The position numbers were made by a program, and so were the translations under genes. Below, piece by piece: positions 22,301-64,000 of a DNA stretch of 64,000 nucleotides. The notes below the pieces were generated by a model that did not search any database, was not told where the DNA came from, and saw nothing but the letters and a program-made list of their open reading frames with translations. Position 1 is the stretch's first letter; each line of letters opens with the position of its first letter. Origin of the DNA: Ignavibacteriaceae bacterium (GTDB lineage Bacteria; Bacteroidota; Ignavibacteria; Ignavibacteriales; Ignavibacteriaceae); the NCBI GenBank assembly GCA_013360295.1, contig JABWCL010000027.1, forward strand, positions 1-64,000. The letters run 5' to 3'.

Positions 22301-22409
22301 CGCGGGAACCGGCTTCCAGAATATGAATGAACGCTGGAAGGTTGAGGTTAAATCAAGGGATAACGGCGGAAATGAAAGTGATATTGTAAGCAAGGAAATT
22401 ATATGGTAA
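10362..22409 (+). CDS. Giant secreted repeat protein (4015 residues)
   Basis: I do not recognise this family. The signal peptide is 'MRKSILFFLVLLYLPVFAQ'. A fibronectin/Ig-like region (about 150-280, 'APVLLDPTNGTT', 'QEYVWRVRVID') is followed by about 2500 residues of beta-rich sequence. That part contains an internal duplication with a period of about 725 residues: 'RGIALPG' at 691 against 'SGITFPV' at 1417, and 'LPENIAL' at 1120 against 'LPENLVL' at 1845. Residues about 2590-2870 are glycine- and aromatic-rich strands resembling a membrane barrel or AsmA-like sheet. A long helical segment lies at about 2875-3300. Fibronectin/Ig-like domains fill the end. There is no T9SS sorting domain and no catalytic motif was seen. 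It overlaps the next gene by 7 bp. A structural, adhesive or envelope-spanning role is speculation. Confidence 0.85.
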   Translation: MRKSILFFLVLLYLPVFAQSPSWNIMMVVEPYPTSFYSVWQNNQSNSYVMVNYTGTPRAEYKVRFVLRNSSGKELARLTSPLEVFEAGPSSKTYFASDFLGWSDSKYDNATLQKIIRTNRFPEGFYEQDITVLASNGSTVLAEGSGNFTIIYPDAPVLLDPTNGTTEERTSPIFTWTQVNLPPTISSKYNLKIVKRFPGQSITQALNANPVHHEADIVNNISYVYPLDALQFENGQEYVWRVRVIDDEGNPLTSNDGNSEFWTFNYFSPGSPGAQLPFSSVELERNVAWFTDFSQLQITTDEGNYKMNGTTTLNLRLSDGELREFPATVENLAFRKNKYNPYIFTSGRVYANLPPGSLPTELLTQHFTPLSVEYSTDEKLFLRGEAEIPGGRKPLKIPGIVSIKPGGVLEATIKYKSGGSGGSSGYDPFIRLSDPAFHYGGFAGVGASLSTSAIPAGHLGILAGPVLQNNLSADPIYTFGNSAVRINITGYELIYPEAIAQFSGEVRIFNDYVVATIRNIRFNESGELTGTIDTNFTLDVNFLPASPGRYALKIQGVNGTFSFEPTTETSSIDLSLKNPKFAIKASGLFSQPFNGSASLTANLTHSSASPAGNGFNVVSLSEFITEGTALAQNPIKFGNSVSLLVNSLTLDSLTYTNTGFDFKISLDLKYSFPGLGLNAGNFSGIPFTKRGIALPGLYSKELSSDSTSGNVRNISGFQFEFTTATTSAITWNGGNTGIDPQLSANLRFSNFPVGSSEDIFTLSLPVTAELNSTGMSITLPVKEFTSSFIALPGGLKYLIKELRGTINGALANNVYQFSPTLRVKGNVEYPEGVFGAASAQEITASTTELSMSGFGIITGTISGVRPSGSLSKGIFALTIPEYGIRFAESDSAQTVEAAGSGKIDLSPLTGTTNSADINFQYDLAAKSWKSLTGTYGTAFTAGLPRQDPQFRLQASSLSITKDGLKINGRHTVSIGSDFSTAVTVNNLIFGYENAAIVSGEVVMDKGFGMFVGSSSGSGAPALSFGNKASSFPSQNGVVINTPNSAVYNREGLVIAAGSDSAYLTHRGLTYKTSAVYDNFKAGGSPFVVKSGRVDLVFGGRTVASLTAQGFTVDESALPSLPENIALLNSAVAFLKVKEGSTELVDWSVEGNNIRVTTRQSSPVTAYFPGLKLGSGITPEMPVSFNVLVDKTNYDIVDGSIQLNIPSEKLSQFDLTGRGMPVKFKSMNFAKNSSGIYELTFGSVIALFGEELNTQNTNLKINGAGLLSGDVNFTNAKTINLRSGADSDKLVLQVSSVAGSFTTELLPYTNPNYQLDLSGGVKLRVMNNAYSGANAVFRVTQSGIEVRNYQADDFTSPVKFDLGKLNLELKGFRLPEIAFSQTTGWSYTIKLDAIMNFTVPGMDFSVPQLNNISITRSGITFPVTQMNNVVAISRTFVIDGFPMRVRNFRTEEYTAASLDPASFNINNTPFRFDFTGLLSGFPTTYPAALRNTQLYIQNAGFVNGFLSGGADSIRYNPVQNIPFGNSGRIAVMELDADFAVKNNQQTLKVEVESYAGLPTNLRAPGWIVFGAAPDNRQSISSRGIVNGTFTTINLVTVRHGNTNLEVSPGATVILGDSNGVQTMAVESSNMKASVNFQTANRATGTGYLRFDIKNAAITAGNIELRPTFKAVLPFYNFVFNFEFSQANINEAGIIINGSHTLLAGQERINTAFSNFTLDIFNLAHKSGSFNITQPFSFYVSVYNTGLWWQAVNSGFVPAANPSMLFRVPSLTVSNNKYSFSGESSGAIRFNNELVTDFRVVFENNPEVEYSSSRVRQGSISFYKGTTKAAFIDANGANLTNMGSVTLPENLVLGDMNTAYIKMRQGETKYVTTENVSNGIRIRNIANQTVQMFVPGIKYTAATAPVYNVTFDVVVNPSTYSVISGTITHNAQTGQSLADLSSYGIPLRVTGLRYASGDAGYIFTVSGVTALPQLLRGLETELSNISVTNGRLSGFSSNGAVTDHYNPSAGYKKILRVGTMAEFKLQGVEYNFGQTPSYKISGDIKSKFFKHGTNDTSAVHFTATFSGGQFVFTPTSASSDGLNIGKFRLVPGAIQNNPQMALSFTNDNFNLAFNGTLRAPDLSPGFETTIRNLRINKDAIAADPVNITTTAQEQTFTIFANEVKLKNVQNNPAITFTYASDVFTLNLNGQISLLGNNNVVLRDFRITSAGAISFGQGSPVTAAAPLAIIQDRLWVTNLSVVTEQNKYLLKVDGQYLLPSPAVQTKQNYSFKIESDQLSTESVHYQVLNEAPGLGNDQTEPKFWAGKFDLQYVGLEIDYSDYSASQLQTVSTFYVDSVNTHRYIKFGGVSGGEVEPGMSVTFERKYEWVEELDFADEVKFTFRNLKYDLDGDDVEFEPDTSNGSFLMRIGGTVELGVTGFSGTLAFSGLEVLSSNEVRRFKESITGGTVTIAPLITAEITRIAFSSTPTDIYMPDPNGTKVQSGPDKGKVVTIKVPVKFYLALGGTVQLGLFAEGGVDSLLIFQRTDGTVNFVLQNFNFRKKDKIEFRLSLQMLTGTGSDFVLSMAGFCDFNGKVLAAVGKVAKWQGKFSAGLYVAALEGVEISFFGLVDLAGVGGGFFFNPTENDINTVRDMSGFVDEYTSSIKAKIKGTPVTGTPLFSIFLYARIEFGQPVPPSTEAPLAGSCLLTIANDRLIIDAKVEALGRRHELYGLANVEVSFTQRYVEGTIAMTVDLRYLITANATMQFFYYSQQNWGIIGTAEYKVLINLLSGNGDFYAGSKGFYAAANFNQGFDVWILTVESGISLKAWYKPDVSWGAYFRLYLEASVLGGVASARGEIKGVLIGAPEFALAGGASLRVRLLFISWNGDVWLRIKKEGIKAGFGKDDAVQRLIAQAEGMSNDFLAAVNAAKADIQNNKPIPSLNIDSTVIRAASAELVKRMLKARSLLAGEQITQAEKDSLATYLASELASGDNAKIREYLTKLKDNILAAGTDAARTELTNLLNQLNTAINDYRTSISNVSQAVSNLAMTIEVPAAASPEGVADPVETTRFTWPTSRNETPQATDPGFSLNNVTAQNNASVVNSFMTTAEGYHDMLKRNIEKIEGTIWKFDQIFANPNNIYLSITFKYVTVVAQIQNYLKKLAQYHYNDITTANTFRTYMISDSAAFFGQIRSKDISDGAGRMKVKTYQRWARIRGLAATNQTPWDHSEFETVWGRFSSTQRNAEAAAMAKNLYYVIPDQAFFGLMNDKKDALARLSGEFAAKMRNVEEHAGAYTRMLDELFAKRRKMSENLFEVVERFIYWKDKPQRGANDKTIDFKNVAPTLATLQAKRTYLVASNTAPNITINAANQTNFKSHTEMSLGWSGSHVNGVVEYSLETSGLPGGFKTVGKFTNWYPYHFPSRKGEHDHYVTYKVRARSASGFTKTAVLYSGVVKMGFTDNNIGAPAQTVTAAAPVDNSEPSQSNPTIDDLHRLRTNRVYYPGRSSFSDAYFGYYTNKATDFRIRITANDPESGISYFRYKIERYNSQGNYVTVRDWQNIGAINEYLIQGLNLTHCATQRDIKMSNYPKNDWDAMASVPRYVISVEATNGAGLTNTRYVCIVVDTTTPPALTESTPRPPTTIRAITGYHQGTVVNYKFDTTSNRSIRPVREARKIVFPVTYSMQPDIQYYYNVYAMPDGIRINSDYLVDNEIYSEAWASGSANIGLGKIATIPAQYDQYDQFKIELMYKTKSGAFSPVFTTTDWYYPYRKNPPTYTWNTGRGWATIDAFPKPPEVYWFNDRSPGQPNNLKLYFRNFGESLDGTGINRFYYSVGTVHTLTDHYSVNYSTWKELPPVSDEGIVSMDASFFSTWSSQSWFTPGNQIYIYIKGVNNSFWAGRNVTVVGPITLAPPTVASVALDIVRDNTVTPNKFVAELTIGGEREATTKTYLVRTLVFRNGSWVAPAAPLSGAWTEVRNIFGVFNWHLTTKYKLNTLNMMPARNLNAAGTGFQNMNERWKVEVKSRDNGGNESDIVSKEIIW
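12385..14170 (+). repeat. Internal duplication of giant protein, unit A
   Basis: Residues about 675-1270. Landmarks are 'FTKRGIALPG' (G at 691), 'LPENIAL' (L1120), then 'FPGLKL', 'VDGSIQLNIP' and 'GAGLLSGDVN'. They recur in the same order in unit B about 725 residues later. The similarity is at the protein level only and is diverged. Confidence 0.6.
14562..16345 (+). repeat. Internal duplication of giant protein, unit B
   Basis: Residues about 1401-1995. Landmarks are 'ITRSGITFPV' (G at 1417), 'LPENLVL' (L1845), then 'VPGIKY', 'ISGTITHNA' and 'VTNGRLSGFS'. Spacing matches unit A within one residue (offsets 726 and 725). Confidence 0.6.
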
Positions 22410-46943: not shown

Positions 46944-47387
46944 TTATTTTTCCAGCGCCAATACTTTGTTCAGCCTTCTCGTGTGCCGTTCTTCGCCGGT
47001 GAACTTTGCATTTAGAAAGCTTTTGACCAGTTCGGCGGCGACTTCTATTCCCACTACTCTCGCGCCGAGGCAAAGGACGTTCATATTATCGTGCTCTACT
47101 CCCTGGCGCGCGGAATATGTATCGTGACACAAGCCAGCCCTGACTCCTTTAATTTTATTGGCGGCTATCGAGGCGCCTACGCCGCTACCGCAGATTATTA
47201 TTCCCCTTTCCGCTTTCCCCTCCGCGACGGTTTTCGCGGCGGCAATCGCGAAATCAGGATAATCGTCTTTCGCGTCATACACGTGATTGCCAGCGTCCGT
47301 TACTTCATAGCCCATTGCGGGGATAATTGTTTTAATGAACTCTTTCAGTTCAAAGCCTCCGTGATCGGCGCCTATCACAACTTTCAT
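46944..47387 (-). CDS. rpiB: Ribose-5-phosphate isomerase B
   Basis: A 147-residue LacAB/RpiB-family isomerase that interconverts ribose-5-phosphate and ribulose-5-phosphate in the pentose phosphate pathway. The sugar-phosphate site 'GADHGG' (6-11), catalytic C66 in 'IIICGSGVG', and the loop '[18 protein letters not shown]' with its conserved His are all present. Length and start are typical. The cytoplasmic enzyme could use ribose released by the glycohydrolases encoded 4 kb away, but the intervening genes and repeats mean there is no operon link. The receptor-like gene upstream ends into its promoter region (30-bp gap), so they may be cotranscribed. Confidence 0.95.
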
Positions 47388-51145: not shown

Positions 51146-52141
51146 CTATTCCGGATCTGCGGCGGCAATATCCGCAAGCCCGCGCGCAATATTAATAAGA
51201 TCAAGGCCTTTTGTGAAAGGGAGGCAATTCCCTGTGGTAAAACGGATCTTTTCAACCCAGCTTTCCGGAATTGCTTTCATCCCGTTCATCGCGCCGCTGA
51301 TGGCTCCCAGAATAGCGCAGATCGTATCGGCGTCCCTGCCAAAATTACCGCTGTAAATAATGCCTTTTCTGAAGTCGCCGTTTGTAAGTTTAAGCATAGC
51401 CAGCGCTGAGGGGACGGCTTCAGGAGCGGCGGCTTTATATTCGGTCCAGAGCGCGTCGTGAAGCGGTTTCCAGGCGTCCTCCAGTACCGGTTTTTCCTCG
51501 ATGATTTTCCAGACAACATCAAACATAAACTTTATCCAGGAGTCCGGCGGAACAACAGAAGCCGCGGTTTTAAAAATCTCATCAACCTGCGCGCCCGCCA
51601 TTGCCGCCGACACAGCCGCGGCCACAGCCTGCGCGCCCCATATCCCTTCCCTGGCGTGACTGATTCTCGATTCAATATCCGCGAGTTTTGAGGCGCGTTC
51701 CGGATCGCCGGCGCATACTATCCCAATCGGAGTAACTCTCATTGCCGCGCCGTCACTAACATTATACGAGTTATAGGTGCCGGACAACGGAGGTAAAATA
51801 TTCCTTCTGATGTTCGCGGCTGCTTCTCTTTCACTGGCGCCGCCGCGCTTAAGTTCCGTAAGCGGTAAAACGTGTTTTTTCCAGTTTTCAAGCACGGCTT
51901 CATCAGTTATTTTTCCTTTGGTATCCAGAAGAGTCTGCGCGGTAAGAAGAGCAAACTCCGTATCATCTGTTCCCGGCGCGGCTTTATCCGTGAAATCCAT
52001 TGTTATACCGTACTGAAAATGATAATCCGCTGACCTTGCGATATCTCCGAATGAATCGCCGATCGCGTGCCCGAGCAGGCAGCCCGCGGCTCTCTCATAC
52101 AGAAGTTCTTTATTACCGATAAGCTCTTTTCTTGTCATCAT
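51146..52141 (-). CDS. ADP-ribosylglycohydrolase family protein (canonical, paralog A)
   Basis: A 331-residue DraG/ARH-family protein. All di-metal site motifs are present: 'GDSFGD' (29-33 region), 'GTDDTE' (T58-D59-D60-T61) and 'GRDADT' (D270, D272, T273), plus the family motifs 'DGAAMRVTPIGIV' and 'SHAREGIWGAQAV'. Family members remove ADP-ribose from proteins or cleave other ribosides and O-glycosidic bonds. It is cytoplasmic (no signal). It is the last gene of a long minus-strand operon, 17 bp after paralog B. In this setting a catabolic glycosidase role on an imported compound is more likely than protein de-ADP-ribosylation, but the substrate is unknown. Confidence 0.9.
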   Translation of the reverse strand: MMTRKELIGNKELLYERAAGCLLGHAIGDSFGDIARSADYHFQYGITMDFTDKAAPGTDDTEFALLTAQTLLDTKGKITDEAVLENWKKHVLPLTELKRGGASEREAAANIRRNILPPLSGTYNSYNVSDGAAMRVTPIGIVCAGDPERASKLADIESRISHAREGIWGAQAVAAAVSAAMAGAQVDEIFKTAASVVPPDSWIKFMFDVVWKIIEEKPVLEDAWKPLHDALWTEYKAAAPEAVPSALAMLKLTNGDFRKGIIYSGNFGRDADTICAILGAISGAMNGMKAIPESWVEKIRFTTGNCLPFTKGLDLINIARGLADIAAADPE

Positions 52142-52158
52142 ATTTATAACTGATATTC

Positions 52159-53487
52159 CTATGTTGTAATTGCAATGTTGAAAGTTCTTTTTGCCAGAAT
52201 GTCGAACGAAAGATTATCAAAACCCTTCATACTGCTCCTGATCCGGTTATTCAGGGGTTTAATCCATTTAGCGGGGAGACTGTCCGCCCCCAGCATTGTT
52301 CCCATTATGGAGCCGGTTGTCGCCCCGTTGCTGTCGGTATCCCATCCCCCCATAACAACGTTGCACACGGCTGTTTCGTAGTCTCCTTTTGCCGAAAGAA
52401 GCGCGGCAGAAACGAGCGCGGCGTTATTGATGGTATGGACCCAGTGATAATCGCCGAATTTTCCGTACAGCAGGTCAACGGTGCTGTCCCAGGCTTCGTT
52501 TTCAATTTCAAGCGAAAGGACATAATTGATGGCGGCGGCAAAACGCGAGTTTGCGGGAACGAAACGCAGCGCTTCGGTAATCAGACTTCTCATATCGTTG
52601 TAAGTAAAACTAAGCGCGAGCGCCGCGGCAAAGAAAACTTCGCCGTATATCCCGTTAGCGCTGTGGCTCAGCCTGGCATCGCGCCACGCAGAATCCGCGG
52701 CCGTGTGAGGGTCACCGGGCGCCGCCCACCCCCATAAGTCCGCGCGTATCTGCGCGCCGATCCATTCGCGGTACGGGTTTCTAACAGAGGATGCCTTTTC
52801 CGTTCCGAGACCGTTAAGCAGGTTAAGATAAGTAACCCGTTCCGCTGTAAACGTTGACAATACCGGCAGCAGTTCCATCCAGGTCTGCGCTACGCTGCTT
52901 GTTGAAAATGCTTTGCCATACTTTTCAAGAACAGAGAGGTTAAGCATCGGATAATTCATATCATCATCCTCGGTCATGCACTCAATATTCTCTTTGAGGC
53001 TCTCCTTACCGCTGTGTTTGTTCCACGGATACTTCTTTAATAATTCATCGGGTATTCCCTTCCCTGTGATATAATCCGTTATCGGCCAGGTGTTGTTTGA
53101 AGAGAGCAGTTCAATTATTCCATTCCTCGGTGTTTTCTCTATCGGCTTTCCGAGAAGGCATCCCGCGCTCCTCCCCAGCCATCCGCCGAGTATCCTGTTC
53201 TCAAGTTCAGCAGAGGAGAGATTATGCTTTGGGTATTTTGAAGCAGGGAACGCAACCCTGATCTCTTCCCAGCCGGATGGTTCCTTTCGACTGCCGGCTG
53301 CGGGAGTCAGTAGTGATAATTCTTTATAAAAATTTTCGACAATCTCTGTGGGAATTTCACCCAGACCGAATCCGGATTTTATGTGTTCCCATTTTTCATT
53401 CAAAGCAGAAACATCACATCCTTCTTCCTTAAGCTGGGTCAATTCATAGCCAACGCGGTCTTTCAGATCAAGCCACGATATTTTCAT
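52159..53487 (-). CDS. ADP-ribosylglycohydrolase family protein (variant subfamily, paralog B)
   Basis: A 442-residue DraG-family protein from a subfamily often found beside sugar uptake genes. It has an extra N-terminal domain (about 1-95). The usual GDA motif is 'GRSAGCLLGKP' (105-115), the TDDT motif reads 'MTEDDDM' (E173-D176), and the C-terminal metal motif is 'GGWDTDSNGAT' (D383, D385), followed by 'TGSIMGTMLGA'. Metal ligands are thus mostly kept but in altered form. The ATG shares one base with the stop of paralog C (TAATG). A different substrate from paralogs A and D is likely. Confidence 0.88.
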   Translation of the reverse strand: MKISWLDLKDRVGYELTQLKEEGCDVSALNEKWEHIKSGFGLGEIPTEIVENFYKELSLLTPAAGSRKEPSGWEEIRVAFPASKYPKHNLSSAELENRILGGWLGRSAGCLLGKPIEKTPRNGIIELLSSNNTWPITDYITGKGIPDELLKKYPWNKHSGKESLKENIECMTEDDDMNYPMLNLSVLEKYGKAFSTSSVAQTWMELLPVLSTFTAERVTYLNLLNGLGTEKASSVRNPYREWIGAQIRADLWGWAAPGDPHTAADSAWRDARLSHSANGIYGEVFFAAALALSFTYNDMRSLITEALRFVPANSRFAAAINYVLSLEIENEAWDSTVDLLYGKFGDYHWVHTINNAALVSAALLSAKGDYETAVCNVVMGGWDTDSNGATTGSIMGTMLGADSLPAKWIKPLNNRIRSSMKGFDNLSFDILAKRTFNIAITT

Positions 53488-54527
53488 TATAGATTTACCT
53501 TTCGCGGATTATCCGCAAGCATAAAAACAAATTTCTCAAAGTCAGTATCTTTCAGTCCGGGGATGCACACTCCCTGCAGGAATCTCACTGATCGGGTCCA
53601 TTCATCACTCATTACTTTTTTATCACTCAATGCTCCCGCGAAAGCCGCCGTGAGGGCGGGGAGCCTCTCCGCATTCCTTGGGAGAGCATTCGCCGTCAGC
53701 AGAGCGGTTTCGAAATCATCGCCGTGTTTTGCCGTTATCGCGAGCGCCAAAGCCAGTGTTTCCGGGGATGAAATTCCGTAACTGTATTCCTTGTTAACAA
53801 TTTCTTTCTGCAGACGCGGCAGGATTGAGAACACCGATTCATTGCCATCCGCCAGTGACATTGTGCTTTCTACTGTTCTTCTTATCCACGAACCATCAGG
53901 CAAATATTCAAGCGCGTTTTTATATGCAAATTTAAAATCAGAGCCAACTGACAGCAGGCTCACAAACGCGGCAGCAAATTTTGCGGCCCAGACACCGTCT
54001 TCATAATTTGTAACGCACGCGTCTGTTTCCGCGAGTTCGGCCGCGGCTTCAGGTTCGCCGGCGAGGATAAGTCCGACAGGCACCGAGCGTATCAAAGCGG
54101 AGTCATCAAAGTAGTGAGGATTCTCCATTCCGCTTTTAGGCGGCATTATTCCCCGCGCTATATTATTCAGCGCGCCGCGGATGCTTACGCTCCCCCTTAT
54201 ATCCTGCTGACTTTCCGCGAGTTTTACCCAGGCATTAAGCAATTCTTCCTTAAAGTTTTCTCTGCCGTGCGATAAAAGTATCTCCGCGGTGAAATAACTC
54301 CATTCAGTATTATCCGCCGGGAGAAAATTAAATGGCTCTGATGGGCGGTTAAGTGAAAAGGGGACAGGTACTGATGTTAAATTATTTCCTTCCGATGCCG
54401 CGTCCATTTCACGACGTATCCTTCTTGTCCAGACAGGCAGTAAATAACTCCTCTTATACATTGAAGTCCAGGAGACTGCGTCTCCGGCTGCCAGCCCCAT
54501 AAATGAATTATAAATTCTTATATTCAC
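53487..54527 (-). CDS. Degenerate ADP-ribosylglycohydrolase-like protein (paralog C)
   Basis: A 346-residue DraG-fold protein with a damaged active site. 'GLAAGDAV' (D16) is kept, TDDT has become 'ADNTEW' (D72-N73-T74), and the C-terminal D-x-D-T is replaced by N285-A-E287-R288 in 'PRNAERLPAL'. The 'SHxxEG' motif reads 'TNYEDGVW'. The reading frame is intact and full length, so it is not a pseudogene in the ordinary sense; it may be a pseudoenzyme or a partner for one of its neighbours. It overlaps paralog D by 4 bp (ATGA) and paralog B by one base. Confidence 0.85.
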   Translation of the reverse strand: MNIRIYNSFMGLAAGDAVSWTSMYKRSYLLPVWTRRIRREMDAASEGNNLTSVPVPFSLNRPSEPFNFLPADNTEWSYFTAEILLSHGRENFKEELLNAWVKLAESQQDIRGSVSIRGALNNIARGIMPPKSGMENPHYFDDSALIRSVPVGLILAGEPEAAAELAETDACVTNYEDGVWAAKFAAAFVSLLSVGSDFKFAYKNALEYLPDGSWIRRTVESTMSLADGNESVFSILPRLQKEIVNKEYSYGISSPETLALALAITAKHGDDFETALLTANALPRNAERLPALTAAFAGALSDKKVMSDEWTRSVRFLQGVCIPGLKDTDFEKFVFMLADNPRKVNL

Positions 54528-55525
54528 TTCATCCTCCTCTTTTGCGCGCGTGATTCATATAACGCGGCAAGAGCGTCCGCGACCGGTAAGATCTCCATAT
54601 CCTTTACCGATGCTATACAAATACCTTTAGCGGCAGTAATCCTGTTTCTCCATTCTTCCGGAATGCAGTCTATACCGTGAAGCGCCCCGATAATTGCACC
54701 TGCAATCGCGGCAATAGTGTCAGTATCCCTTCCGATATTTACCGCGCCGAGCACCGCGTCATCAAACTTCCCTTTTGACGCGGCGACCAATCCAAAGGCT
54801 ATGCCTACAGCCTCCGGCGCTACATCCGGCCAGTAATAATAAGGCACAGCAATGTTTCCGTAGAGCGGTTCAAGGGCATCCCAGACAGTCTCACACTCCG
54901 AACCAATCTTAATACCTCTTGATAACGCCGAACGTGTCCACGACTCCGCGGGCACAACTTTCATCGCTGAGTTAAAAACTTCATCCATATTTCCACCGCT
55001 CACAGCTGTTGCGACCGCTGCAGCGACAGCCTGTCCGCCGTATATTCCCTCTCCGCTGTGGCTGACTTCACCGTCTATTCTGACATAATCTGCCGCGAGA
55101 TCCGGTTCGCCGCAAAAAACAATTCCATAGGGCGCGGCTCTCATAGCAAGCCCGTCACTCCAGCTATGGAGATGCTGACCTGAATACGGAGGATTGACCC
55201 CCGCGCTGAGGTTTCTGATTGCAATTATCTCACTGAAGCCTGCTCCTTTATAAGCGTTAGCAGGATTAATTATATCGCGCCTCCATCCTTCGGCAACTAA
55301 CTCAGGGGTGAGCGATTCCGCATAACGCAGCAGAAGCTGAGCGCTGAAAAGTGCGTATTCCGTATCGTCGCTTCCGTGCTGTCCGGCATCAAGAAAGCCC
55401 GTTATCCTTCCCCACTTCTTTCTTATCGCTTCCGGTGAATGACCTTCAGTCGGGGCTCCCAGCGCATCGCCCACAGCAAGACCGGTAAGGACTCCGCGCG
55501 CTCTGTCTTTTAATGTGATTACCAT
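54524..55525 (-). CDS. ADP-ribosylglycohydrolase family protein (canonical, paralog D)
   Basis: A 333-residue DraG/ARH-family protein with all motifs: 'GLAVGDALGAPTEG' (D20), 'GSDDTEY' (S52-D53-D54-T55), 'SHSGEGIYGGQAVAAAV' and 'NIGRDTDTIAAIAG' (D267, D269, T270). It is predicted to be cytoplasmic and active. Closest in design to paralog A, so the two could be an old duplication. It overlaps the solute-binding protein gene by 7 bp and paralog C by 4 bp, which ties the glycohydrolases to the importer. Confidence 0.92.
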   Translation of the reverse strand: MVITLKDRARGVLTGLAVGDALGAPTEGHSPEAIRKKWGRITGFLDAGQHGSDDTEYALFSAQLLLRYAESLTPELVAEGWRRDIINPANAYKGAGFSEIIAIRNLSAGVNPPYSGQHLHSWSDGLAMRAAPYGIVFCGEPDLAADYVRIDGEVSHSGEGIYGGQAVAAAVATAVSGGNMDEVFNSAMKVVPAESWTRSALSRGIKIGSECETVWDALEPLYGNIAVPYYYWPDVAPEAVGIAFGLVAASKGKFDDAVLGAVNIGRDTDTIAAIAGAIIGALHGIDCIPEEWRNRITAAKGICIASVKDMEILPVADALAALYESRAQKRRMK

Positions 55526-56841
55526 ACTTCTCCCCGTTTTCTGTAACGGTTAAGAACAATTTTGCTTTCACGTTCTATTCTGTCCACAGCCTCTTTTACA
55601 TTCAGCCTTCCCGCAAACATCTCCTGCATAACAGGATTCATAACGCGGGTCTTCCACTCAACATAGCCCGGCATTCCAAGCCACGGCCCGACACCAAGAG
55701 TCTGTACCGAAGAGCACGTTATGTCCCATCCGCTTACGGAATCCTTAAACTCCGGCATCTCCAGACAAGATCTCCTCGCCGGAATCATCCAGTCGTTAAG
55801 CGCCAGCCGCGCGGTATTTTCGGAGGAAAGCATAAACTCAATAAACTTCACCGCTTCTTTGATATAAGGTGACTTTGCGGGTACGCTAAGCGTCTGTGTA
55901 CTCACACTGTAATTCTGGTTCTTCGCTTTCAGCGGGGGCATCACACCCCACCGGAAGCCTGCGGGAGCATTTTCCACAATTTGCTGCCGCGCCCACGAAC
56001 CGATAAGGACTATCATCGCGTACTTCCCGCTTAAAAATCCCGGTATCATTCCCGCGCCGCTTTCACCAATACTTGCAGGTGCAACTGATTTATCCTTATA
56101 GATCATATCAAGCAATCGCTGCAGCAGCTGTTTCGCTTCGACGTTAATTTTTGGCACGAACCAGTCGTTTTCTTTTTCAAAGAATGAGCCGCCGAAACTC
56201 AGCGATGTATTCATAATTATATTCGCTGAACTCCTCAACCCGATACCGGCACCGTACTGATCCGTTATCCCGTCACCATTATTATCTTTTGTAAGAGTTT
56301 CCGCCGCTGCTTTAAGATCATCCCAGCTCCAGGGATTTTCTACTGTAGGGGGAGTTATTCCCGCCTCATCAAACATATCACTGTTATATAGCACCACAAG
56401 GGATTCTATCAGGAAAGGGACTCCGTCAATTTCACCATTAGGCCGGCGGACGGTTGCCCACGCAACATCAAGAATATCCTTTTTTGTTTCCTCTGACAGA
56501 TAAGGGGCGAGGTCAGCAAGATAACCGCGCATTGAATAATCAACTATTACCGATGACTCGTAGTGAAAGATGTCGGGAACGTCGCCTGTTTCAAACGCGG
56601 TGATAAGATAGTCGTGCGCTGAATTCCAGGTTCCCTGCACATACTCAACTTTAAGTTCGGGATGAAGCCTGTTCCACTCATTGACTATCGCGAGATTTGT
56701 CGCAACTGTTGTTTCCTGCCAGGCGAGGCTGACAAAGCGCATATGGCTCCTCTTCTCAGCCTGCTTGTTGCAGGATGTATTCACCAGAAGAATCTGGAGC
56801 GCAAAAAGCAGAATAAATGAAATGCGAATCATCCGTTTCAT
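55519..56841 (-). CDS. Sugar-type ABC transporter solute-binding lipoprotein
   Basis: A 440-residue extracytoplasmic binding protein of the MalE-like family 1. The ATG at 56841 is chosen because it overlaps the stop of the upstream permease (ATGA) and gives a clean lipoprotein signal 'MKRMIRISFILLFALQILLV' with lipobox TSC (C24); a start at 56880 would add 13 residues. Family segments include 'YVQGTWNSAHDYLITAFETG', 'DVPDIFHYES', 'YGAGIGLRSS' and 'FLSGKYAMIVLIGSWA'. Binding proteins of this group carry oligosaccharides, glycerol phosphates or nucleosides. The glycohydrolase genes that follow suggest a ribosylated ligand, as an inference. Confidence 0.93.
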   Translation of the reverse strand: MKRMIRISFILLFALQILLVNTSCNKQAEKRSHMRFVSLAWQETTVATNLAIVNEWNRLHPELKVEYVQGTWNSAHDYLITAFETGDVPDIFHYESSVIVDYSMRGYLADLAPYLSEETKKDILDVAWATVRRPNGEIDGVPFLIESLVVLYNSDMFDEAGITPPTVENPWSWDDLKAAAETLTKDNNGDGITDQYGAGIGLRSSANIIMNTSLSFGGSFFEKENDWFVPKINVEAKQLLQRLLDMIYKDKSVAPASIGESGAGMIPGFLSGKYAMIVLIGSWARQQIVENAPAGFRWGVMPPLKAKNQNYSVSTQTLSVPAKSPYIKEAVKFIEFMLSSENTARLALNDWMIPARRSCLEMPEFKDSVSGWDITCSSVQTLGVGPWLGMPGYVEWKTRVMNPVMQEMFAGRLNVKEAVDRIERESKIVLNRYRKRGEVW

Positions 56842-57674
56842 CCCTTCAGCGCTCCGCTCACTAATCCGGTAGTCAACCACTTTCTCATAAAGACAAACAG
56901 AAGCAGCGACGGAAGAGTTGATATAACGCTTGCGGCGGCAAGCGGACCCGTTCTCGCCTGCCCTTCCATTCCGGTATACCGGGCAAGTTCAACCTGAAGG
57001 GTCGCGAGTGATGAACTTTTCATTAAGACAAAAGCAAAGAAGAACTCATTCCACGCGGAGATAAATGAGAATAACGCAGAAGCGCCTATCGCGGGCATAA
57101 GCAGGGGCATCAACACTTTAAATATAACCTGCAGCCTTCCCGCACCTTCAACCACGGCAGCCTCTTCGAGTTCGATGGGTATGCCCTTCAGGTAACCGTG
57201 CATCATCCATAAGACAAAGGGGAGCGACCATATAACATATACAAGCGTAAGTCCGGTGAGCGTGTCGGTTAATCCCATCGTGCGGAGTATTACATACAGA
57301 GGGATCATAACGAGAATGACCGGAAAAATTTGAGATACAAGTATCCAGCCAAGCATCATATTATTCGCGGCGGATTTAAATCGTACCATCGCGTACGCCG
57401 AGGGTATCGCGATAATAATAACGATTATGGTAGACACAATTCCCACAATGGTGCTGTTGAGCATACTTAAAAGCACTTTCTGCCCTTCGATAACCGAGCG
57501 GTAATGATCTAGCGTGAAAGTACGCGGCAGTATAGCCGGCTGACCCGAATAGATTTCTGGCGTCGGTTTGAGAGAAGTCGCCAGCACCCATATAAGAGGG
57601 AAAAGGAGGAACACAACAAAAAGAATAATAAGTATGTGGATAACTGAGCTGAAGAAAAAGTTATATTTTTTCAC
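56838..57674 (-). CDS. Sugar-type ABC transporter permease (MalG-like)
   Basis: A 278-residue inner-membrane permease with about six membrane helices. The coupling loop that contacts the ATPase is 'EEAAVVEGAGRLQVIFKVLM' (EAA motif), and the N-terminal 'ILATSLKPTPEIYSG'-like 'VLATSLKPTPEIYSGQPAIL' is a MalG-type signature. It overlaps the MalF-like gene upstream (4 bp) and the binding-protein gene downstream (4 bp). No ATPase gene is present in the cluster. Confidence 0.95.
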   Translation of the reverse strand: MKKYNFFFSSVIHILIILFVVFLLFPLIWVLATSLKPTPEIYSGQPAILPRTFTLDHYRSVIEGQKVLLSMLNSTIVGIVSTIIVIIIAIPSAYAMVRFKSAANNMMLGWILVSQIFPVILVMIPLYVILRTMGLTDTLTGLTLVYVIWSLPFVLWMMHGYLKGIPIELEEAAVVEGAGRLQVIFKVLMPLLMPAIGASALFSFISAWNEFFFAFVLMKSSSLATLQVELARYTGMEGQARTGPLAAASVISTLPSLLLFVFMRKWLTTGLVSGALKG

Positions 57675-58507
57675 GCTTCCTTCCTCTCTCTTAACTGAAC
57701 GCGGATATAAAAGAAAAGCATAAGTGAAAGGATCAGCACCATCACATTTCCTATGGCGGCGGCATATCCGATATAGCCGTATTTAAAACCTTCTTCATAC
57801 GCGGCAAGCATCGGCAGTCGTGTTAAACCTCCCGGGCCTCCCTGCGTAAGCACCCACACTATTCCGAACGTGTTGAAGTTCCACATAAACGTCAGTGAAA
57901 TTATTGAGGCAAGGATAGGACGCAGAACCGGCAATGTAATATTCCTGAACTGGCTCCACAGGCCAGCGCCGTCAATACGGGCGGCTTCGTAAAGGTCGTT
58001 TGAAATTGTCTGTAATCCTGCGAGAAGAAAGATAGCTGCTTTTGAGATCTCCCCCCATACTCCGGCTACAATCACCGCCGGGATAACATACTCAAAACTT
58101 GAGAGCCAGTTTATTGGCGCCGAAATAATTCCAAGATCACTAAGAACAATATTAACCGCACCGCTCGAAGGTTCATACATCTGGCGCCAAAGTATTCCGC
58201 GTATAATCGGCGGTGTTGCCCAGGGAATTAATATCAGAACGGTATATACAGCCGTGAATCTCACTCCGGTATTAAGAAGGAGCGCGAGTCCAAGGCCGAG
58301 GCCTACCTGAAGCGCCGTGACAATGAATGTCCAGATCATTCCTATCCTGAATGAGTTCCAGAAAAAATCATCCTGAAAAAGCTGAATGTAATTATCTATT
58401 CCGTTAAAGGATATCGGGTCGCCAAGGCGGTAATCAGTAAAGCCGAGCCATATGCCCCGAAGTAAAGGCATCAGCGAGAATAGTGTTACCAGTATAATAA
58501 CCGGCAT
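57671..58507 (-). CDS. Sugar-type ABC transporter permease (MalF-like)
   Basis: A 278-residue permease with MalF-type features: 'SLMPLLRGIWLGFTDYRLGD', the EAA loop 'YEAARIDGAGLWSQFRNITL', and about six helices. The first ATG in frame is at 58507, but the sequence just before it also reads like a permease N-terminus in the same frame ('LKKKKFSLYSKSEAGQIHLL') and has no start codon. An ATG at 58584 overlaps the upstream stop (ATGA), as at the other junctions of this operon, but is out of frame. A short indel or an unusual start is therefore possible. The protein body is intact. Confidence 0.9.
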   Translation of the reverse strand: MPVIILVTLFSLMPLLRGIWLGFTDYRLGDPISFNGIDNYIQLFQDDFFWNSFRIGMIWTFIVTALQVGLGLGLALLLNTGVRFTAVYTVLILIPWATPPIIRGILWRQMYEPSSGAVNIVLSDLGIISAPINWLSSFEYVIPAVIVAGVWGEISKAAIFLLAGLQTISNDLYEAARIDGAGLWSQFRNITLPVLRPILASIISLTFMWNFNTFGIVWVLTQGGPGGLTRLPMLAAYEEGFKYGYIGYAAAIGNVMVLILSLMLFFYIRVQLRERKEA

Positions 58508-58580: not shown

Positions 58581-61007
58581 TCATTTTGTTTTTATAAGTG
58601 AAACACATTTTTCTATCAGCAATTTTTCATATTCTGAATGATGTTCGCCGGGAGTGTTCCGCGCGGAGATGATAATAAGCTGATTTTCCGGATCAACACA
58701 AAACACCGATCCGCTCGCCGCGCCGTGCCCGAACGCGGAGTCGCTCAGTCCGTATTTCGCCATTGGCGAGGTGCCCACACCCCAGGACCTGTCTCCAAAA
58801 GGAAGCTTCAGGGGGAGCATCATCTGATAACTATTTTCAGAAAATAATTCAAAACCGTTATAACGGCCTTTATTCAATAACATCTGTCCGAGTTTCGCGA
58901 GATCGTAAGCAGTACAATATAACCCTCCGTAGGTATTATCGCAAAACGCGCTTGTCATACCCAGCGGTTCGAAGATATGATCCCGAAGAAGAAAAGGGAC
59001 TGCCTGCCCGGTCACCTTCTCAAGTATCTTTCCGGTCAGCGCGTAGCCTGCCCGGTTATAACCATACTCAGACCCGCTATTAATGTACGGGAGAATTTGC
59101 GCGGTCTGGTTATCAAGCGCCGGGTTCCAGTCTGAAGCCCATTCGCCCGCAAAGTGTAACCCGCTGGTATGGTTCATCAGCTGCCGGGTTGTAATTATGT
59201 TTTTACTCTGCTTCCCTGTTTCAGGAAGATACTCAAATATCGGTTTATCCAGATTAAGAAGCCCCTGATCAGCAAACTGCATTACTAAAACGCCTGTAAG
59301 CAGTTTCGTGATGGAAGCCATCCAGAGTTTTGATTCCTTTGTTACTTTTTCCCCGGCCGTTTTAGCGTTGAATGCCTCGTGGAAAATTATTTTTCCTTTA
59401 TGAGCGATCAGTGTAACGTGCGGAACACCCGACTTACCCGCCCACTCCGCACAGACGGATCTGAGTGCATCCATCCCGGTTTTCGCGTATGCAGAATCAG
59501 TATCTTTCAGAGCAGAAAGATTTTTTTCCGTGAATTTTTTATTTGTTTTCTTTTTCAGAGAGGCTGTAGAAGTATTCTTTTCGATCAGACTTCTTAGTTT
59601 TATCCAGTTTTGTCTGTCACGTATTCTGGGGGTCTCGTTCCACACTGTTCCCGGCTTCATTCCACTTAAACCGGAAAGAAAAACAGCAGCGTCGGGACTC
59701 GTTCTAAGATAAGATTTCAGGTCACCGAAAGAGTAATCTGCCATATTCGCGCGGTATGCATTCCATTTTAATGAATCAATTCCCCATTCACTCAAATAAT
59801 TTATTGCCATACTGACTGACCGGCTGTAATCATCAAAATCTACATCAGCGCAGTAAAGAGTCTGATACCGTTTAATCTCAAAACCGGATTTATCTTTCCC
59901 GCTAATGACCGCGTAATATGCACCGGGTTTATCCGCGCGGTCAACGGGCGCAAATGAACTATTATAATAGACAGCGGACAGTTCAGCACTTCCGATCCCT
60001 TCACGTACGGCGTCAGGATCTTTCCAGCCAAACTCAGGAAAATCACCGGACGGGAAGATATAACTCCTAAAGGTGAGTGGTTCGTTCATAAACTTAAAGA
60101 GGCGCTGTTTGTTAATCTCTTTCCAGTAAATTGTATCAACAACTTTACCGTCGAGGATCACATACGAAAGCGCATCGCCAAAAGGTTGCTCCTCCCTCGG
60201 AACCACGACCTTTGCCGAGGAAAATACGCCTGAAGGCTTCAATAAACCGGAGGTTATCAACCCGCCGGATGAATTAATTGTTATTCGCGGATCAGAATAG
60301 GAGCGGTTCAGGCAAAGGGTATAAATGACCTCACCTTTTGGCGCGGTTTCCAGGCCGGTAAAGATTCCTTTTTCCGCTTCATTTCTTATCCTCGTTACGA
60401 CATCAGTATAGGCAAAGAGGCGGTACCAGTTTTCTCTTTGCCCCGGCTTCCCCACAATGCGGATCTTAACCGGTATCAATGGCTGAAGAAGTGTTTTGGG
60501 AAGTGAAAGAGACATATAACCAAGGTTCGCGCCGTTTGCATTTTGCTCAACAGCGGTGAAAGACAAACTAACATCAGTCCCGACTGTCTGTACCCAGTTA
60601 AAATTTCTCTTCGTTGTGAAGCTGATTCGAACTGAATCGTTCACCTGAAGTTCGTATTCATTTTCACCCAGATTACTTCCGTAGCCGCAGGCCCACACAA
60701 AAGATAAGGATGAACCTCTGAAATTGGCAGGCACCGGAATGGTTTCCCATTCAATTGATGCTTCACTGACAAGTGTGCGGGCTACATAGGCCGAGTCCCT
60801 TTTTTCTCCGCCGAGATGAGACTGATAAGGAGCATAGGTACCGCCGATTATCTTACCGTAACCGTCCAGCCACCGCGTGTTATCACCCGCAGCAGTGAAG
60901 TGGAGTCTTGCCGACTCAAACACATTTATCTGCGGGTAAAGCGTGCAGGCACTAAAAAATAACACTGCGCACAGAAGCGATGCTGATTTAAACTTTATGG
61001 CTCTCAT
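58581..61007 (-). CDS. Lipoprotein serine hydrolase (beta-lactamase class C-like) with N-terminal beta domains
   Basis: An 808-residue predicted lipoprotein. The ATG at 61007 gives 'MRAIKFKSASLLCAVLFFSA' with lipobox FSAC; a longer version from 61097 would extend into the next gene. The first ~500 residues look like beta-sandwich or carbohydrate-binding modules. The C-terminal ~330 form a serine beta-lactamase-like/esterase domain with SxxK at S565-I-T-K568 and a 'GHGAASGS' third motif. The second motif reads 'EYGYNRAGYAL' in place of YxN, so the position of the usual tyrosine is G. This fold acts on peptides, esters or beta-lactams; an esterase for a surface substrate is inferred. The stop overlaps the ATG at 58584. 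Confidence 0.85.
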   Translation of the reverse strand: MRAIKFKSASLLCAVLFFSACTLYPQINVFESARLHFTAAGDNTRWLDGYGKIIGGTYAPYQSHLGGEKRDSAYVARTLVSEASIEWETIPVPANFRGSSLSFVWACGYGSNLGENEYELQVNDSVRISFTTKRNFNWVQTVGTDVSLSFTAVEQNANGANLGYMSLSLPKTLLQPLIPVKIRIVGKPGQRENWYRLFAYTDVVTRIRNEAEKGIFTGLETAPKGEVIYTLCLNRSYSDPRITINSSGGLITSGLLKPSGVFSSAKVVVPREEQPFGDALSYVILDGKVVDTIYWKEINKQRLFKFMNEPLTFRSYIFPSGDFPEFGWKDPDAVREGIGSAELSAVYYNSSFAPVDRADKPGAYYAVISGKDKSGFEIKRYQTLYCADVDFDDYSRSVSMAINYLSEWGIDSLKWNAYRANMADYSFGDLKSYLRTSPDAAVFLSGLSGMKPGTVWNETPRIRDRQNWIKLRSLIEKNTSTASLKKKTNKKFTEKNLSALKDTDSAYAKTGMDALRSVCAEWAGKSGVPHVTLIAHKGKIIFHEAFNAKTAGEKVTKESKLWMASITKLLTGVLVMQFADQGLLNLDKPIFEYLPETGKQSKNIITTRQLMNHTSGLHFAGEWASDWNPALDNQTAQILPYINSGSEYGYNRAGYALTGKILEKVTGQAVPFLLRDHIFEPLGMTSAFCDNTYGGLYCTAYDLAKLGQMLLNKGRYNGFELFSENSYQMMLPLKLPFGDRSWGVGTSPMAKYGLSDSAFGHGAASGSVFCVDPENQLIIISARNTPGEHHSEYEKLLIEKCVSLIKTK

Positions 61008-61026
61008 CTTACCGGTAAATATAAAA

Positions 61027-62745
61027 CTATTTTTTATTGCTTCTCGCAAGCAGCCACGTATAAACATCCGGATTATTATATGTGACCGTCCACGCATCGT
61101 GATATACTCCAGGGTATATCGTGAAATCCGGATGCCCTCCGCAGGTAATTAGAGTATTTATTACATTCTGCGCGAGTGAAACGGGAATTATCGGATCATT
61201 CTGGCCGTGGAATCCCCACAGCGGAATATGATCTATAGCGCAGAGATTCCAGCCGGTCTCTATCCTGAACGCGATCGGAAGGAGCGCGGCGAACCGGTTT
61301 GGGTATCTTATCGCGAGGTCAAGCGTACCAATCCCCCCCATACTGAAACCGGTGAGATAAATGCGGTTTGTATCCACCGGGTAGCGGCCGATCGCGCTGT
61401 CGATCATCGCGTCAACCTTCAGCTGGATCCCGTCGTTGTAATACCATTCAGTCGAAAGAGGACACTGCGGTGATATTACAATAAAAGGAAAAGAATTATT
61501 TCCGTCCAGTATTTTCGGCAGCCCGTCAAGCTTAACTCTCCACAAATCATTTCCCCTCTCACCTATTCCGTGAAGTGAAATGATCAGCGGGTACTTTCCG
61601 TTTATTACGGCGGAGGTATCCCGCGGCATAAATAACAGATAATTCAGAGTAGAGGGATCATATATTTCCTGCTGGATGATCGGGTCGCTTCCGAAGTCGG
61701 GTTGGCCGAGCACATAATCCGCGTATGGATTATTTGGCAGCTGTGCCGCGTGGTTAAACACAAGAACCCGGTGGTTTGATTCGTCAACTACATAGAGCCG
61801 CCCGGCTGCATCGCCGAATACACCGCGGATATTCCCCATACCGTTACGAGAGTTTTTCTTTGTGTTGGTTGTAAAATCCGGCTGACCAATCACTCCGTCG
61901 GCTTCGGCTCCGTTAGGTTTTAAAGATATTGAATCGAATCTTATCACACGGTTATTATCATCCTCGCACACCCACCCGTAATCAAGTGCGTCAACGTAGA
62001 TACCCATCGGGCGGTTCATTTTGGCGGCTGATAGCCCGTTGCCCCCGCTTGTAAAATCGGTCTGGCCTAACACACCGTCTGCCGGCGCGCCGTTGTTTTT
62101 CTGTGCGGGGTTATTATAACGGAGAACCCTGTGATTAAGCCTGTCCGTAACCCACAAAATTCCTTTTGTATCCACAAATACACCGACCGGCCCTCTCATT
62201 TTTGTGGAAGAGGTGCCTGCTGAGTTTGTTGTAAAATTCGGCTGCCCAAGCACGGCATCGGCCGCGGCGCCGGTTGCCTTATAAGACGCACTGTCAAACC
62301 TGAGGACGCGGTTGTTCAGGTAATCGCTGACCCAGAGCCGCCCTTCACTGTCAACAAAAACGCGCAGAGGGTCATTGAACTTAACCGCGGACAGACCGCT
62401 TGAAGACGTTGTAAAATCAGGCTGACCCAAAACACATTCAGCTTCAGAGCCGTTATTCATTTTCGAGGCTGAACTCCACCTTAATACACGGTTATTGTAC
62501 CGGTCGGCAACAAACAATTTTCCCGTAAGCGGATCAACAGCAACTCCCGAGGGGGAGTTAAGATTAACCGTTGAAGTACCCGATCCGCCGGTTTCGAAAT
62601 TCGGCTGACCAAGCACACCGTCCGCGGGCATATAGTTCCGGAGCGGTGACTGAGCCTGCAGGTTAAGAGCAAGAACAATTAAAAGAAAAAATATGCGGGG
62701 CAGTATCCCGGCTGAAGGCGGTTTTGATTTTATTTCATTAAACAT
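61027..62745 (-). CDS. NHL-repeat protein fused to an alpha/beta-hydrolase esterase
   Basis: A 572-residue secreted protein with signal peptide ending 'LVLALNLQAQ'. Residues about 45-330 hold five NHL-type blades of about 56 residues, each with 'VLGQPDFTT', 'VFVDSEGRLWVSDY' and 'LNNRVLRFD'-like segments. Residues about 345-572 are a PHB-depolymerase/feruloyl-esterase-like hydrolase: nucleophile S468 in 'GFSMGG', acid in 'GQNDPIIP' and His in 'YHDAW'. There is no T9SS sorting domain. NHL propellers bind proteins or glycans. It overlaps its upstream neighbour by 16 bp and precedes the serine hydrolase by 19 bp. Confidence 0.88.
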   Translation of the reverse strand: MFNEIKSKPPSAGILPRIFFLLIVLALNLQAQSPLRNYMPADGVLGQPNFETGGSGTSTVNLNSPSGVAVDPLTGKLFVADRYNNRVLRWSSASKMNNGSEAECVLGQPDFTTSSSGLSAVKFNDPLRVFVDSEGRLWVSDYLNNRVLRFDSASYKATGAAADAVLGQPNFTTNSAGTSSTKMRGPVGVFVDTKGILWVTDRLNHRVLRYNNPAQKNNGAPADGVLGQTDFTSGGNGLSAAKMNRPMGIYVDALDYGWVCEDDNNRVIRFDSISLKPNGAEADGVIGQPDFTTNTKKNSRNGMGNIRGVFGDAAGRLYVVDESNHRVLVFNHAAQLPNNPYADYVLGQPDFGSDPIIQQEIYDPSTLNYLLFMPRDTSAVINGKYPLIISLHGIGERGNDLWRVKLDGLPKILDGNNSFPFIVISPQCPLSTEWYYNDGIQLKVDAMIDSAIGRYPVDTNRIYLTGFSMGGIGTLDLAIRYPNRFAALLPIAFRIETGWNLCAIDHIPLWGFHGQNDPIIPVSLAQNVINTLITCGGHPDFTIYPGVYHDAWTVTYNNPDVYTWLLARSNKK

Positions 62746-63329
62746 ATCTTTTCCGCCTTAATTCCGTTTGGTGTTTTAAGAATGCACAAATATACTCCGC
62801 TCGCGAGATTGACGGGATTGTAACGAATATTGTACGTGGTATTTGCGTTGATATTTCCGTCAAAAAGTGAAGTGATCTTCCGTCCCAGCTGACTGTAAAT
62901 TTCCAGGCTTACCCTGCCGCCTGTCCCGCTTAAAAAAGAAATGGTTGAGGAAACGCTGAAAGGATTGGGATAGACGGAGATCATCGCCCGGTTTTGGCGG
63001 AGTTCTTCTTCACGGCCTGCTTTTATTCCCGAGAGCGTTGAGACATCAAACCGCAACACACGATTATTATCAAAATCCGTGAGCCAAATATTTTTTCCCT
63101 GCACGTCAATGAAGACTGACTGAGGATAAGTGAATGTGTTCGCCGTCGGAGGAAGAAATTGTGTGTTTATGGGGCTCTCCTGCGAAAAGGCTCGGACCGA
63201 AATGATCACCACCAGGGAAACAAACTTAATGAATCCGCCGTCAGATAGACCGCTGAATAAATTTAGTGATTTCAATATTTTATTTTTATTTAAGGAATCC
63301 GGAAGTTCCCGCAGTAATAACGGGAACAA
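62730..63329 (-). CDS. Small NHL-blade protein with T9SS sorting domain
   Basis: A 199-residue protein. The N-terminus holds a hydrophobic stretch ('FIKFVSLVVIISVRAFSQ', about 34-51), preceded by an unusually long polar region if the ATG at 63329 is used; no closer start codon was found. One NHL-like blade follows ('SVFIDVQGKNIWLTDFDNN'), then a T9SS sorting domain ('VYPNPFSVSSTISF', 'SQLGRKITSLFDG', 'LASGVYLCILKT'). It looks like a shortened relative of the gene to its right. Surface-located; no enzyme motif. Confidence 0.78.
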   Translation of the reverse strand: MFPLLLRELPDSLNKNKILKSLNLFSGLSDGGFIKFVSLVVIISVRAFSQESPINTQFLPPTANTFTYPQSVFIDVQGKNIWLTDFDNNRVLRFDVSTLSGIKAGREEELRQNRAMISVYPNPFSVSSTISFLSGTGGRVSLEIYSQLGRKITSLFDGNINANTTYNIRYNPVNLASGVYLCILKTPNGIKAEKICLMK

Positions 63330-63355: not shown

Positions 63356-64000
63356 TTATTTCATCAGGATCATTTTCTTGGATTCAGAAAATTGTCCTGC
63401 CTGAAGTATACAGAAATAAACACCGCTGGGCAAGTTGGAAGCGTTGAACTCAAGGCTGTGCGAGCCGGCTTCGGTTTCGCCGTTCGCGAGTATTGCTACT
63501 TCATTGCCAAGGACATCGGTAACGGAAACCCTTACAAAGGATTTTTCCGGAACGACGAACTGAATTGTCGTTGAGGGGTTAAACGGATTCGGATAATTCT
63601 GATTCAGCGCGAAATCCATTTCAGCTATAATGTCAACTTCAACTTCGCTTGAATATTCGTATGCTCCGCCAAAATCAATTTGCTTCAGGCGGTAGGTGTA
63701 TTTGCCGGTCGAGGTTGCGTTATCGGTGAATGTATAACTGTTTGGAGCGGTGGATGTACCCGCGCCTTTTACAAAACCAACCGCTGTGTACTCAGCGCCA
63801 TTTTCACGTTTTTGAATTTCAAAGCCGTTGTTATTGGTTTCGCTGGCAGTTGACCAGTTGAGGGTAACTACGCCATTGGTAACGCTTGCTTTAAATGAAA
63901 CCAGTTCAACCGGAATCGGGGAAACGTCAAATCTGAGGATCCTGTGGCTGTAAGTATCGGGGACCCAGATGTGATTTGAAGGATTGTCAATGAATACGGT
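63356..64000 (-). CDS. T9SS-exported NHL/fibronectin-type protein (partial, start beyond window)
   Basis: The reading frame stays open from the stop at 63356 to the right edge (214 codons), so the gene starts outside the window; the ATG at 63619 is internal. In order the visible part shows an NHL-like blade ('TVFIDNPSNHIWVPDTYSHR'), a fibronectin-like domain ('VELVSFKASVTNGVVTLNWS', 'NNNGFEIQKREN', 'YTYRLKQIDFGGAYEYSSEV') and a T9SS type A sorting domain ('NYPNPFNPSTTIQF', 'VLGNEVAILANGE', 'SGVYFCILQAG'). This architecture is common in Ignavibacteria surface proteins. Confidence 0.9.
   Translation of the reverse strand, partial: TVFIDNPSNHIWVPDTYSHRILRFDVSPIPVELVSFKASVTNGVVTLNWSTASETNNNGFEIQKRENGAEYTAVGFVKGAGTSTAPNSYTFTDNATSTGKYTYRLKQIDFGGAYEYSSEVEVDIIAEMDFALNQNYPNPFNPSTTIQFVVPEKSFVRVSVTDVLGNEVAILANGETEAGSHSLEFNASNLPSGVYFCILQAGQFSESKKMILMK

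Follow-up and report, generated by a model that had tools for sequence, protein, structure and literature searches.

Among the ribose utilisation systems (rus) of Bacteroidetes, that of B. thetaiotaomicron (BT2803-2809) combines uptake genes, ribose kinases and a regulator, and scavenges ribose (PMC12596196, with reference to Glowacki 2020). The function of a second set of genes, yegTUV of E. coli, is unknown; its repressor, GgaR, has been linked to glycogen accumulation (PMC10819704). The locus considered here, approximately 24 kb in length (C43:51146-75369), belongs to an uncultured Ignavibacteria-type bacterium (contig JABWCL010000027.1, henceforth C43). It starts within, and runs past, the stretch of 64,000 nucleotides that was analysed as a whole (positions 1-64,000 of the contig; "the window"). 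With rus it shares uptake genes, a ribose kinase and a regulator; with yegTUV it shares the grouping of a transporter, a PF03747 protein and a PfkB kinase. Its core is a CUT1-type ABC importer followed by four paralogous PF03747 (DraG/ARH-family) proteins, designated A to D in gene order. We think it fairly probable that this is a ribose-salvage locus, in which a glycoside is imported and cleaved by DraG-fold ribosidases and the liberated ribose is phosphorylated.

An importer and four PF03747 proteins in one operon

Seven open reading frames (ORFs) lie on the minus strand of the window in the order perm1-perm2-SBP-A-B-C-D (SBP: solute-binding protein). Permease 1 (57671..58507; PF00528) is of the UgpA/MalF type and permease 2 (56838..57674; PF00528) of the MalG/GlcU type, as judged by their best NCBIfam matches (UgpA and MalF; GlcU and MalG); together with the SBP (55519..56880; PF01547) they constitute the CUT1 combination of one SBP_bac_1 protein and two BPD_transp_1 permeases. 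The PF03747 proteins follow: A (54524..55525; 199 bits in a Pfam profile search with a cut-off of 26.2), B (53487..54527; 128 bits), C (52159..53487; 161 bits; 442 aa, including an extra N-terminal ~90 aa) and D (51146..52141; 178 bits). The entire genome has six PF03747 matches, and these are four of them. The genes are tightly packed: perm1 and perm2 overlap by 4 bp, the SBP gene and A by 7 bp, A and B by 4 bp, B and C by 1 bp, and 17 bp separate C from D. Taken as ORFs, perm2 and the SBP gene overlap by 43 bp; translation of the SBP probably starts at an internal ATG near 56841, which would shorten that overlap to 4 bp. An earlier, sequence-only reading of this DNA had described four DraG-family paralogs behind an SBP and two permeases, with junctions of 1, 4, 4, 7 and 17 bp; coordinates, families and junctions are all confirmed.

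The SBP has a strongly hydrophobic N-terminus (crude hydropathy). A to D are probably cytoplasmic, because their N-termini have no signal-peptide-like stretch (crude hydropathy and inspection). The SBP profile is nearest to Lmo0181, an arabino-oligosaccharide binder and maltose-type binders, and for an importer of this family an oligosaccharide or a glycoside is a likelier cargo than a nucleotide. No ATPase gene is present within the operon. The only UgpC/MalK-type ATPase above cut-off in the genome is encoded on another contig (C20:25483-26577); the sharing of one ATPase among several importers of the CUT1 type is established, and in four relatives a UgpC-type ATPase gene comes directly after D.

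A search of other genomes for the same gene order, which the sequence-only reading had proposed, found A, B, C and D adjacent to one another and in this order in 19 loci of Ignavibacteria-type Bacteroidota and KSB1 (the window; L013, L014, L020-L026, L028, L029; L118, L121, L125, L126, L129, L130, L131), some of which end at contig boundaries. In all 16 loci with a contig reaching upstream (the window is one of them), A comes directly after the genes for the SBP and two permeases; that conservation rejects adjacency by chance. Among close relatives there is no case of the paralogs standing apart from the importer where both are visible; distant C-type homologs do stand alone, without an importer (L127, L132, L133). 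A was found in 3 of 247 genomes of the phylum. A scan of GTDB contigs with narrow peptide patterns returned close relatives only, and wider searches were added to it. The patchy spread of the locus across families and KSB1 suggests its horizontal transfer.

Motifs, phylogeny and fold of the paralogs

Both metal motifs are present in A (SDDTE / GRDTDT) and D (TDDTE / GRDADT), and C has a variant form of them (EDDD / WDTDSNGA), just as the sequence-only reading had it. In alignments of 17-20 orthologs (18 for D, 20 for C) these motifs are kept, with a few single changes. B, with ADNTE / PRNAER, had been called degenerate. The motif loss is real; the implied local decay is not, since the second metal motif is gone from 20 of 20 B sequences, that of Nonomuraea included. 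Judged by its sequence, B is a conserved pseudoenzyme; that all orthologs share the loss suggests that B serves as a partner or a regulator.

A tree of 51 sequences makes A, B, C and D each monophyletic (bootstrap 99-100). A, B and D cluster together, with B the long-branched sister of D; C belongs to a separate clade with Actinomycetota, Deinococcota, Bacillota, haloarchaeal and rhizobial sequences (support 100/100). The A, B and C proteins of Nonomuraea sit in the matching A, B and C clades. By this phylogeny, in which some branches are long, no fewer than three of the four types either predate the Ignavibacteria lineage or have moved together.

Structure modelling, likewise proposed at the outset, was run for A and C. 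The predicted structure of A (predicted local distance difference test, pLDDT, 87.4) superimposes on ARH3, MJ1187 and DraG with Z scores of 33-34 and root-mean-square deviations of 2.5-2.6 over 284-299 residues; that of C (pLDDT 78.7) has MJ1187 as its top match, followed by ARH3 and DraG. In these models both proteins are shown to adopt the all-helical ARH fold. The NCBIfam equivalogs for DraG (best score 60.8 against a cut-off of 337) and Tri1 (61.7 against 490) are both missed by a wide margin. ADP-ribose binding or activity of ARH3 requires S148, Y149 and H182, of which Y149 was dispensable in one of two studies (PMC5727137, PMC8319183); the residues of A aligned to these three are S, W and H, so that the set is partly kept, with an aromatic residue in place of Y149, and the sequence is compatible with an ADP-ribosyl substrate. 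A and D also share an SDG loop; its counterpart is NG in YegU and in one homolog each from L. plantarum and a haloarchaeon.

Might A to D be ordinary ADP-ribosyl hydrolases, working on ADP-ribosylated compounds (imported or internal), NAD breakdown products or proteins? Their fold and motifs are those of ARH3 and DraG, the ADP-contacting residues are partly matched in A, and the characterised ARH enzymes that have been reviewed act on ADP-ribosyl groups (PMC7050489). The rest of the locus argues otherwise: its CUT1 importer is nearest to oligosaccharide binders, no ADP-ribosyltransferase, NUDIX or nucleotidase gene is seen in it, the ribokinase linked to it (see below) uses free ribose, and A and D depart from the NG of the homologs just mentioned. 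We regard this alternative as distinctly unlikely. The sequence-only reading had proposed uptake and cleavage of a riboside or an ADP-ribosylated compound. The idea of uptake and cleavage has gained strongly from the linked ribokinase (11 genomes), from the linkage of paralogs to importer and from the recurrence of the gene kit in other phyla. As to the compound, the importer, being of the oligosaccharide class, makes a ribose glycoside or an oligosaccharide likelier than anything ADP-ribosylated.

Other PF03747 sequences of this genome keep different company. A 1411-aa protein on contig C69 (L043:3068-10649) has an N-terminal PF03747 domain fused to a type I methyltransferase, HsdM, and adjoins genes for a DarT ADP-ribosyltransferase, a UvrD-like helicase, HsdS and HsdR; by sequence it looks like a DarT toxin accompanied by a DraG-type reversal domain fused to HsdM. 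DarTG2 inside a type I restriction-modification system is known, from a paper whose text has neither the word "glycohydrolase" nor the word "fused" (PMC12255303). A PF03747 fragment at a contig end (C21:25073-25222, the end of L044) lies by what appear, by eye, to be CRISPR-Cas-like genes and repeats.

Ribokinase, surface genes and the acid-lyase tail

Past the window (read as L016, C43:62001-75668) the locus continues with genes for an NHL-repeat protein with a type IX secretion system (T9SS) sorting domain, an LVIVD/T9SS protein, a ribokinase, PorV, a ~640-aa protein, a TonB receptor and a LacI-family regulator. The ribokinase (C43:67440-68387) scores 348.3 with TIGR02152 (cut-off 299.65), and a search at 1e-10 found no second one in the genome. 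The best profile for the regulator is RbsR, at a score under its cut-off; the TonB receptor matches a SusC-like profile weakly (90 versus 368 bits), and there is no SusD match in the locus. The neighbouring ~640-aa protein (C43:69459-71375; L016:7459-9375) has no Pfam or NCBIfam family match; among most carriers of the locus its identity is 77-80%, weaker relatives exist elsewhere, and every locus that was read has it between the TonB receptor and PorV. Ribokinase, outer-membrane uptake genes and regulator are found together in one locus, as in rus.

The intervening part of the locus, within the window and also on the minus strand, encodes a serine hydrolase with a beta-lactamase/esterase fold (58581..61097; PF00144, 139 bits), whose orthologs in relatives are also upstream of perm1; an exported, esterase-like protein with NHL repeats and an alpha/beta-hydrolase domain (61027..62745; PF01436, PF02230), which has orthologs in relatives; a small protein with a T9SS C-terminal sorting domain (62730..63329; PF18962, 37.5 bits); and the in-window part of the NHL/T9SS protein (63356..64000), which runs on to C43:65092. 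The sequence-only reading had noted surface esterase-like hydrolases and NHL proteins upstream, and these are what is seen, together with the T9SS-tailed protein.

The ribokinase gene is found between the PorV and LVIVD genes in 11 Ignavibacteria-type genomes; in several of these drafts it is on another contig than A to D, tied to them only through common flanking genes. In a sample of 391 genomes of the class, orthologs of C (at least 52% identity) occur in 14, orthologs of the ribokinase (at least 56%) in 12, all among the 14 with C (Fisher 4e-21), and the ~640-aa protein (at least 60%) in 13, 12 of them among the same 14; the genomes are related rather than independent, and p-values in this sample overstate their independence.

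One can accordingly sketch how a ribose-salvage locus of this composition might operate. The surface esterase-like proteins and the TonB receptor would process and take up a ribose-containing glycoside; the CUT1 importer (SBP, perm1, perm2 and the shared UgpC-type ATPase), to go by its family, would carry it into the cytoplasm. There A, C and D may act as two-metal DraG-fold ribosidases that differ in the ribosyl linkage they cut, and B may be a non-catalytic partner. The linked ribokinase, which belongs to that family by its profile score, would phosphorylate the freed sugar, presumed to be ribose. The LacI/RbsR-like repressor, again clear as to family, would control the locus in response to a putative ligand. 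Certain facts weigh against this scheme: besides the ARH3-like residues of A and the ADP-ribosyl specificity of the known ARH enzymes, already mentioned, these are that PfkB kinases can use other sugars, that the ribokinase is missing at its usual place in KSB1 genome G661 (L130/L157), and that the Ensifer and Sinorhizobium operons described below are without one.

What follows D may bear on the other part of the substrate. A CitD-CitE fusion comes directly after D in 12 of the 18 loci with a visible downstream region, with CitF as well where the contig continues; of the remaining six, four have the ATPase after D and two have neither, and in all six CitF is found elsewhere in the genome. Within the class sample, CitF is present in 99 of the 391 genomes: 12 of the 14 that have the cassette (in the two others the locus ends at a contig boundary) versus 87 of 377 (Fisher 2e-6). 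Quite separately, three Ensifer/Sinorhizobium plasmid operons end with genes for a CaiB-type CoA transferase and a CitE-like lyase (L143:10204-12263, L151:10163-12213, L154:11207-13263). Because two unrelated enzyme sets of similar chemistry occupy the same place, they suggest, speculatively, that the substrate also yields an acid resembling citrate, citramalate or malate. On this basis ribose salvage can be put in more specific terms: the substrate would be ribose, or another pentose, conjugated to a citrate-like hydroxy acid, A to D would separate sugar from acid, the ribokinase would take the sugar, and a citrate/citramalate lyase, or the CoA transferase with the CitE-like lyase, would take the acid. 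Both kinds of tail speak for it, but CitF is frequent in this order regardless of the cassette, the Agrobacterium and Nitratireductor operons have no lyase, and, a further count against it, we know of no natural conjugate of ribose and a citrate-like acid. Moreover, CitF of the source genome may serve central metabolism, because it adjoins aconitase-like and isocitrate-dehydrogenase-like genes (and a PrpD-like gene; all by eye). The conjugate is thus, in our estimation, rather doubtful. The fullest version, a class of catabolic DraG-fold O-ribosidases with an obligate pseudoenzyme, dismantling an undiscovered natural conjugate of ribose and a citrate-like acid, we judge unlikely.

Two other features of the window are recorded here. 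An RpiB-like protein (by eye) is encoded at 46944-47387, ~4 kb downstream of D; membership in the pathway is not supported, since none of the relatives' loci that were read shows it. An ORF of 4015 aa on the plus strand (10362-22409) has no Pfam match.

The gene kit in other phyla and its described counterparts

The sequence-only reading knew of no described pathway with this layout. A functional description was indeed not found in the open-access literature searched (subscription papers lay outside its scope); the layout itself is not unique. A wider survey by protein searches of plasmid records, covering plasmid-borne relatives, shows the kit to recur in Actinomycetota, Deinococcota and Proteobacteria (the loci opened were hand-picked from the matches, and the list is not an estimate of frequency). 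Nonomuraea gerenzanensis has a permease, SBP, A, B, C and ribokinase in a row, the kinase scoring 311.8, above cut-off. Mycolicibacterium has LacI, a C-type gene, SBP, two permeases, ribokinase and UgpC; Deinococcus has LacI, an importer, a C-type gene, ribokinase and a second C-type gene; Agrobacterium has LacI, an importer, two PF03747 genes, UgpC and ribokinase, and a similar operon without the ribokinase is found in Nitratireductor, Phyllobacterium, Ensifer and Sinorhizobium. Parabacteroides groups rbsK with a PF03747 gene, a nucleoside hydrolase and a sugar transporter. In Halostella and on a plasmid of Rhizobium ACO-34A a C-type gene is beside a BMP-type importer. Some opened loci have neither importer nor kinase by their PF03747 genes, which are distant, DraG-like members. 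Operons joining PF03747 genes to a CUT1 importer are thus widespread; what the loci have in common is that a sugar-bearing molecule would be imported, and most of them include a gene of the PfkB/ribokinase type.

Some of these neighbours make one ask whether the substrate of ribose salvage is an O-glycoside at all, or rather a nucleoside or other N-riboside, such as a nucleoside that is modified or has the alpha configuration. C-type homologs are found by nucleoside hydrolases or BMP-type importers (Halostella, Rhizobium ACO-34A, Parabacteroides), cytosine permeases are partners of PF03747 genes, and E. coli YegU is accompanied by a putative nucleoside symporter and a kinase (PMC10819704). The nucleoside-linked loci use other importers, however, while the importer here is of the oligosaccharide type, and we take the N-riboside to be possible, though on the unlikely side.

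PF03747 proteins are annotated nearly automatically as ADP-ribosylglycohydrolases. Where operons for the import of sugars or nucleosides combine family members with ribokinase-type genes, as in several bacterial phyla and some archaea, these members are probably metabolic instead. The locus offers a dense test case: three subfamilies that are likely to be active, one conserved and inactive, an SBP through whose ligand the substrate would become known, and acid-lyase tails of two independent kinds as a hint of what else the substrate contains. An answer would change the annotation of many genes and might bring to light a ribose-containing nutrient that still has no name.

How does the locus stand beside its counterparts? 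DraG and ARH3 share with its hydrolases the fold, as seen in the model of A, and the two-metal motifs, and differ in having only ~20-26% identity to them; the context here is catabolic rather than signalling, A and D have the SDG loop, and the motif of C is a variant. The rhizobial LacI-perm-perm-SBP-ARH-ARH-UgpC operons (Agrobacterium, Ensifer, Sinorhizobium, Phyllobacterium, Nitratireductor) likewise place PF03747 genes, one of them C-type, after a CUT1 importer, some with a ribokinase or CoA lyase close by, and likewise lack a functional description in the papers searched; they have two hydrolases against the four here, of other subfamilies, and no TonB or T9SS genes. E. coli yegTUV has a major facilitator superfamily (MFS) symporter, a single hydrolase with the canonical TNGAAMR motif, and no outer-membrane parts. 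Some rus variants may carry PF03747 genes. The locus differs from rus in its CUT1 importer, in its four PF03747 paralogs, a pseudoenzyme among them, and, in relatives, in the frequent presence of citrate lyase; we read it as a variant of the ribose-utilisation loci.

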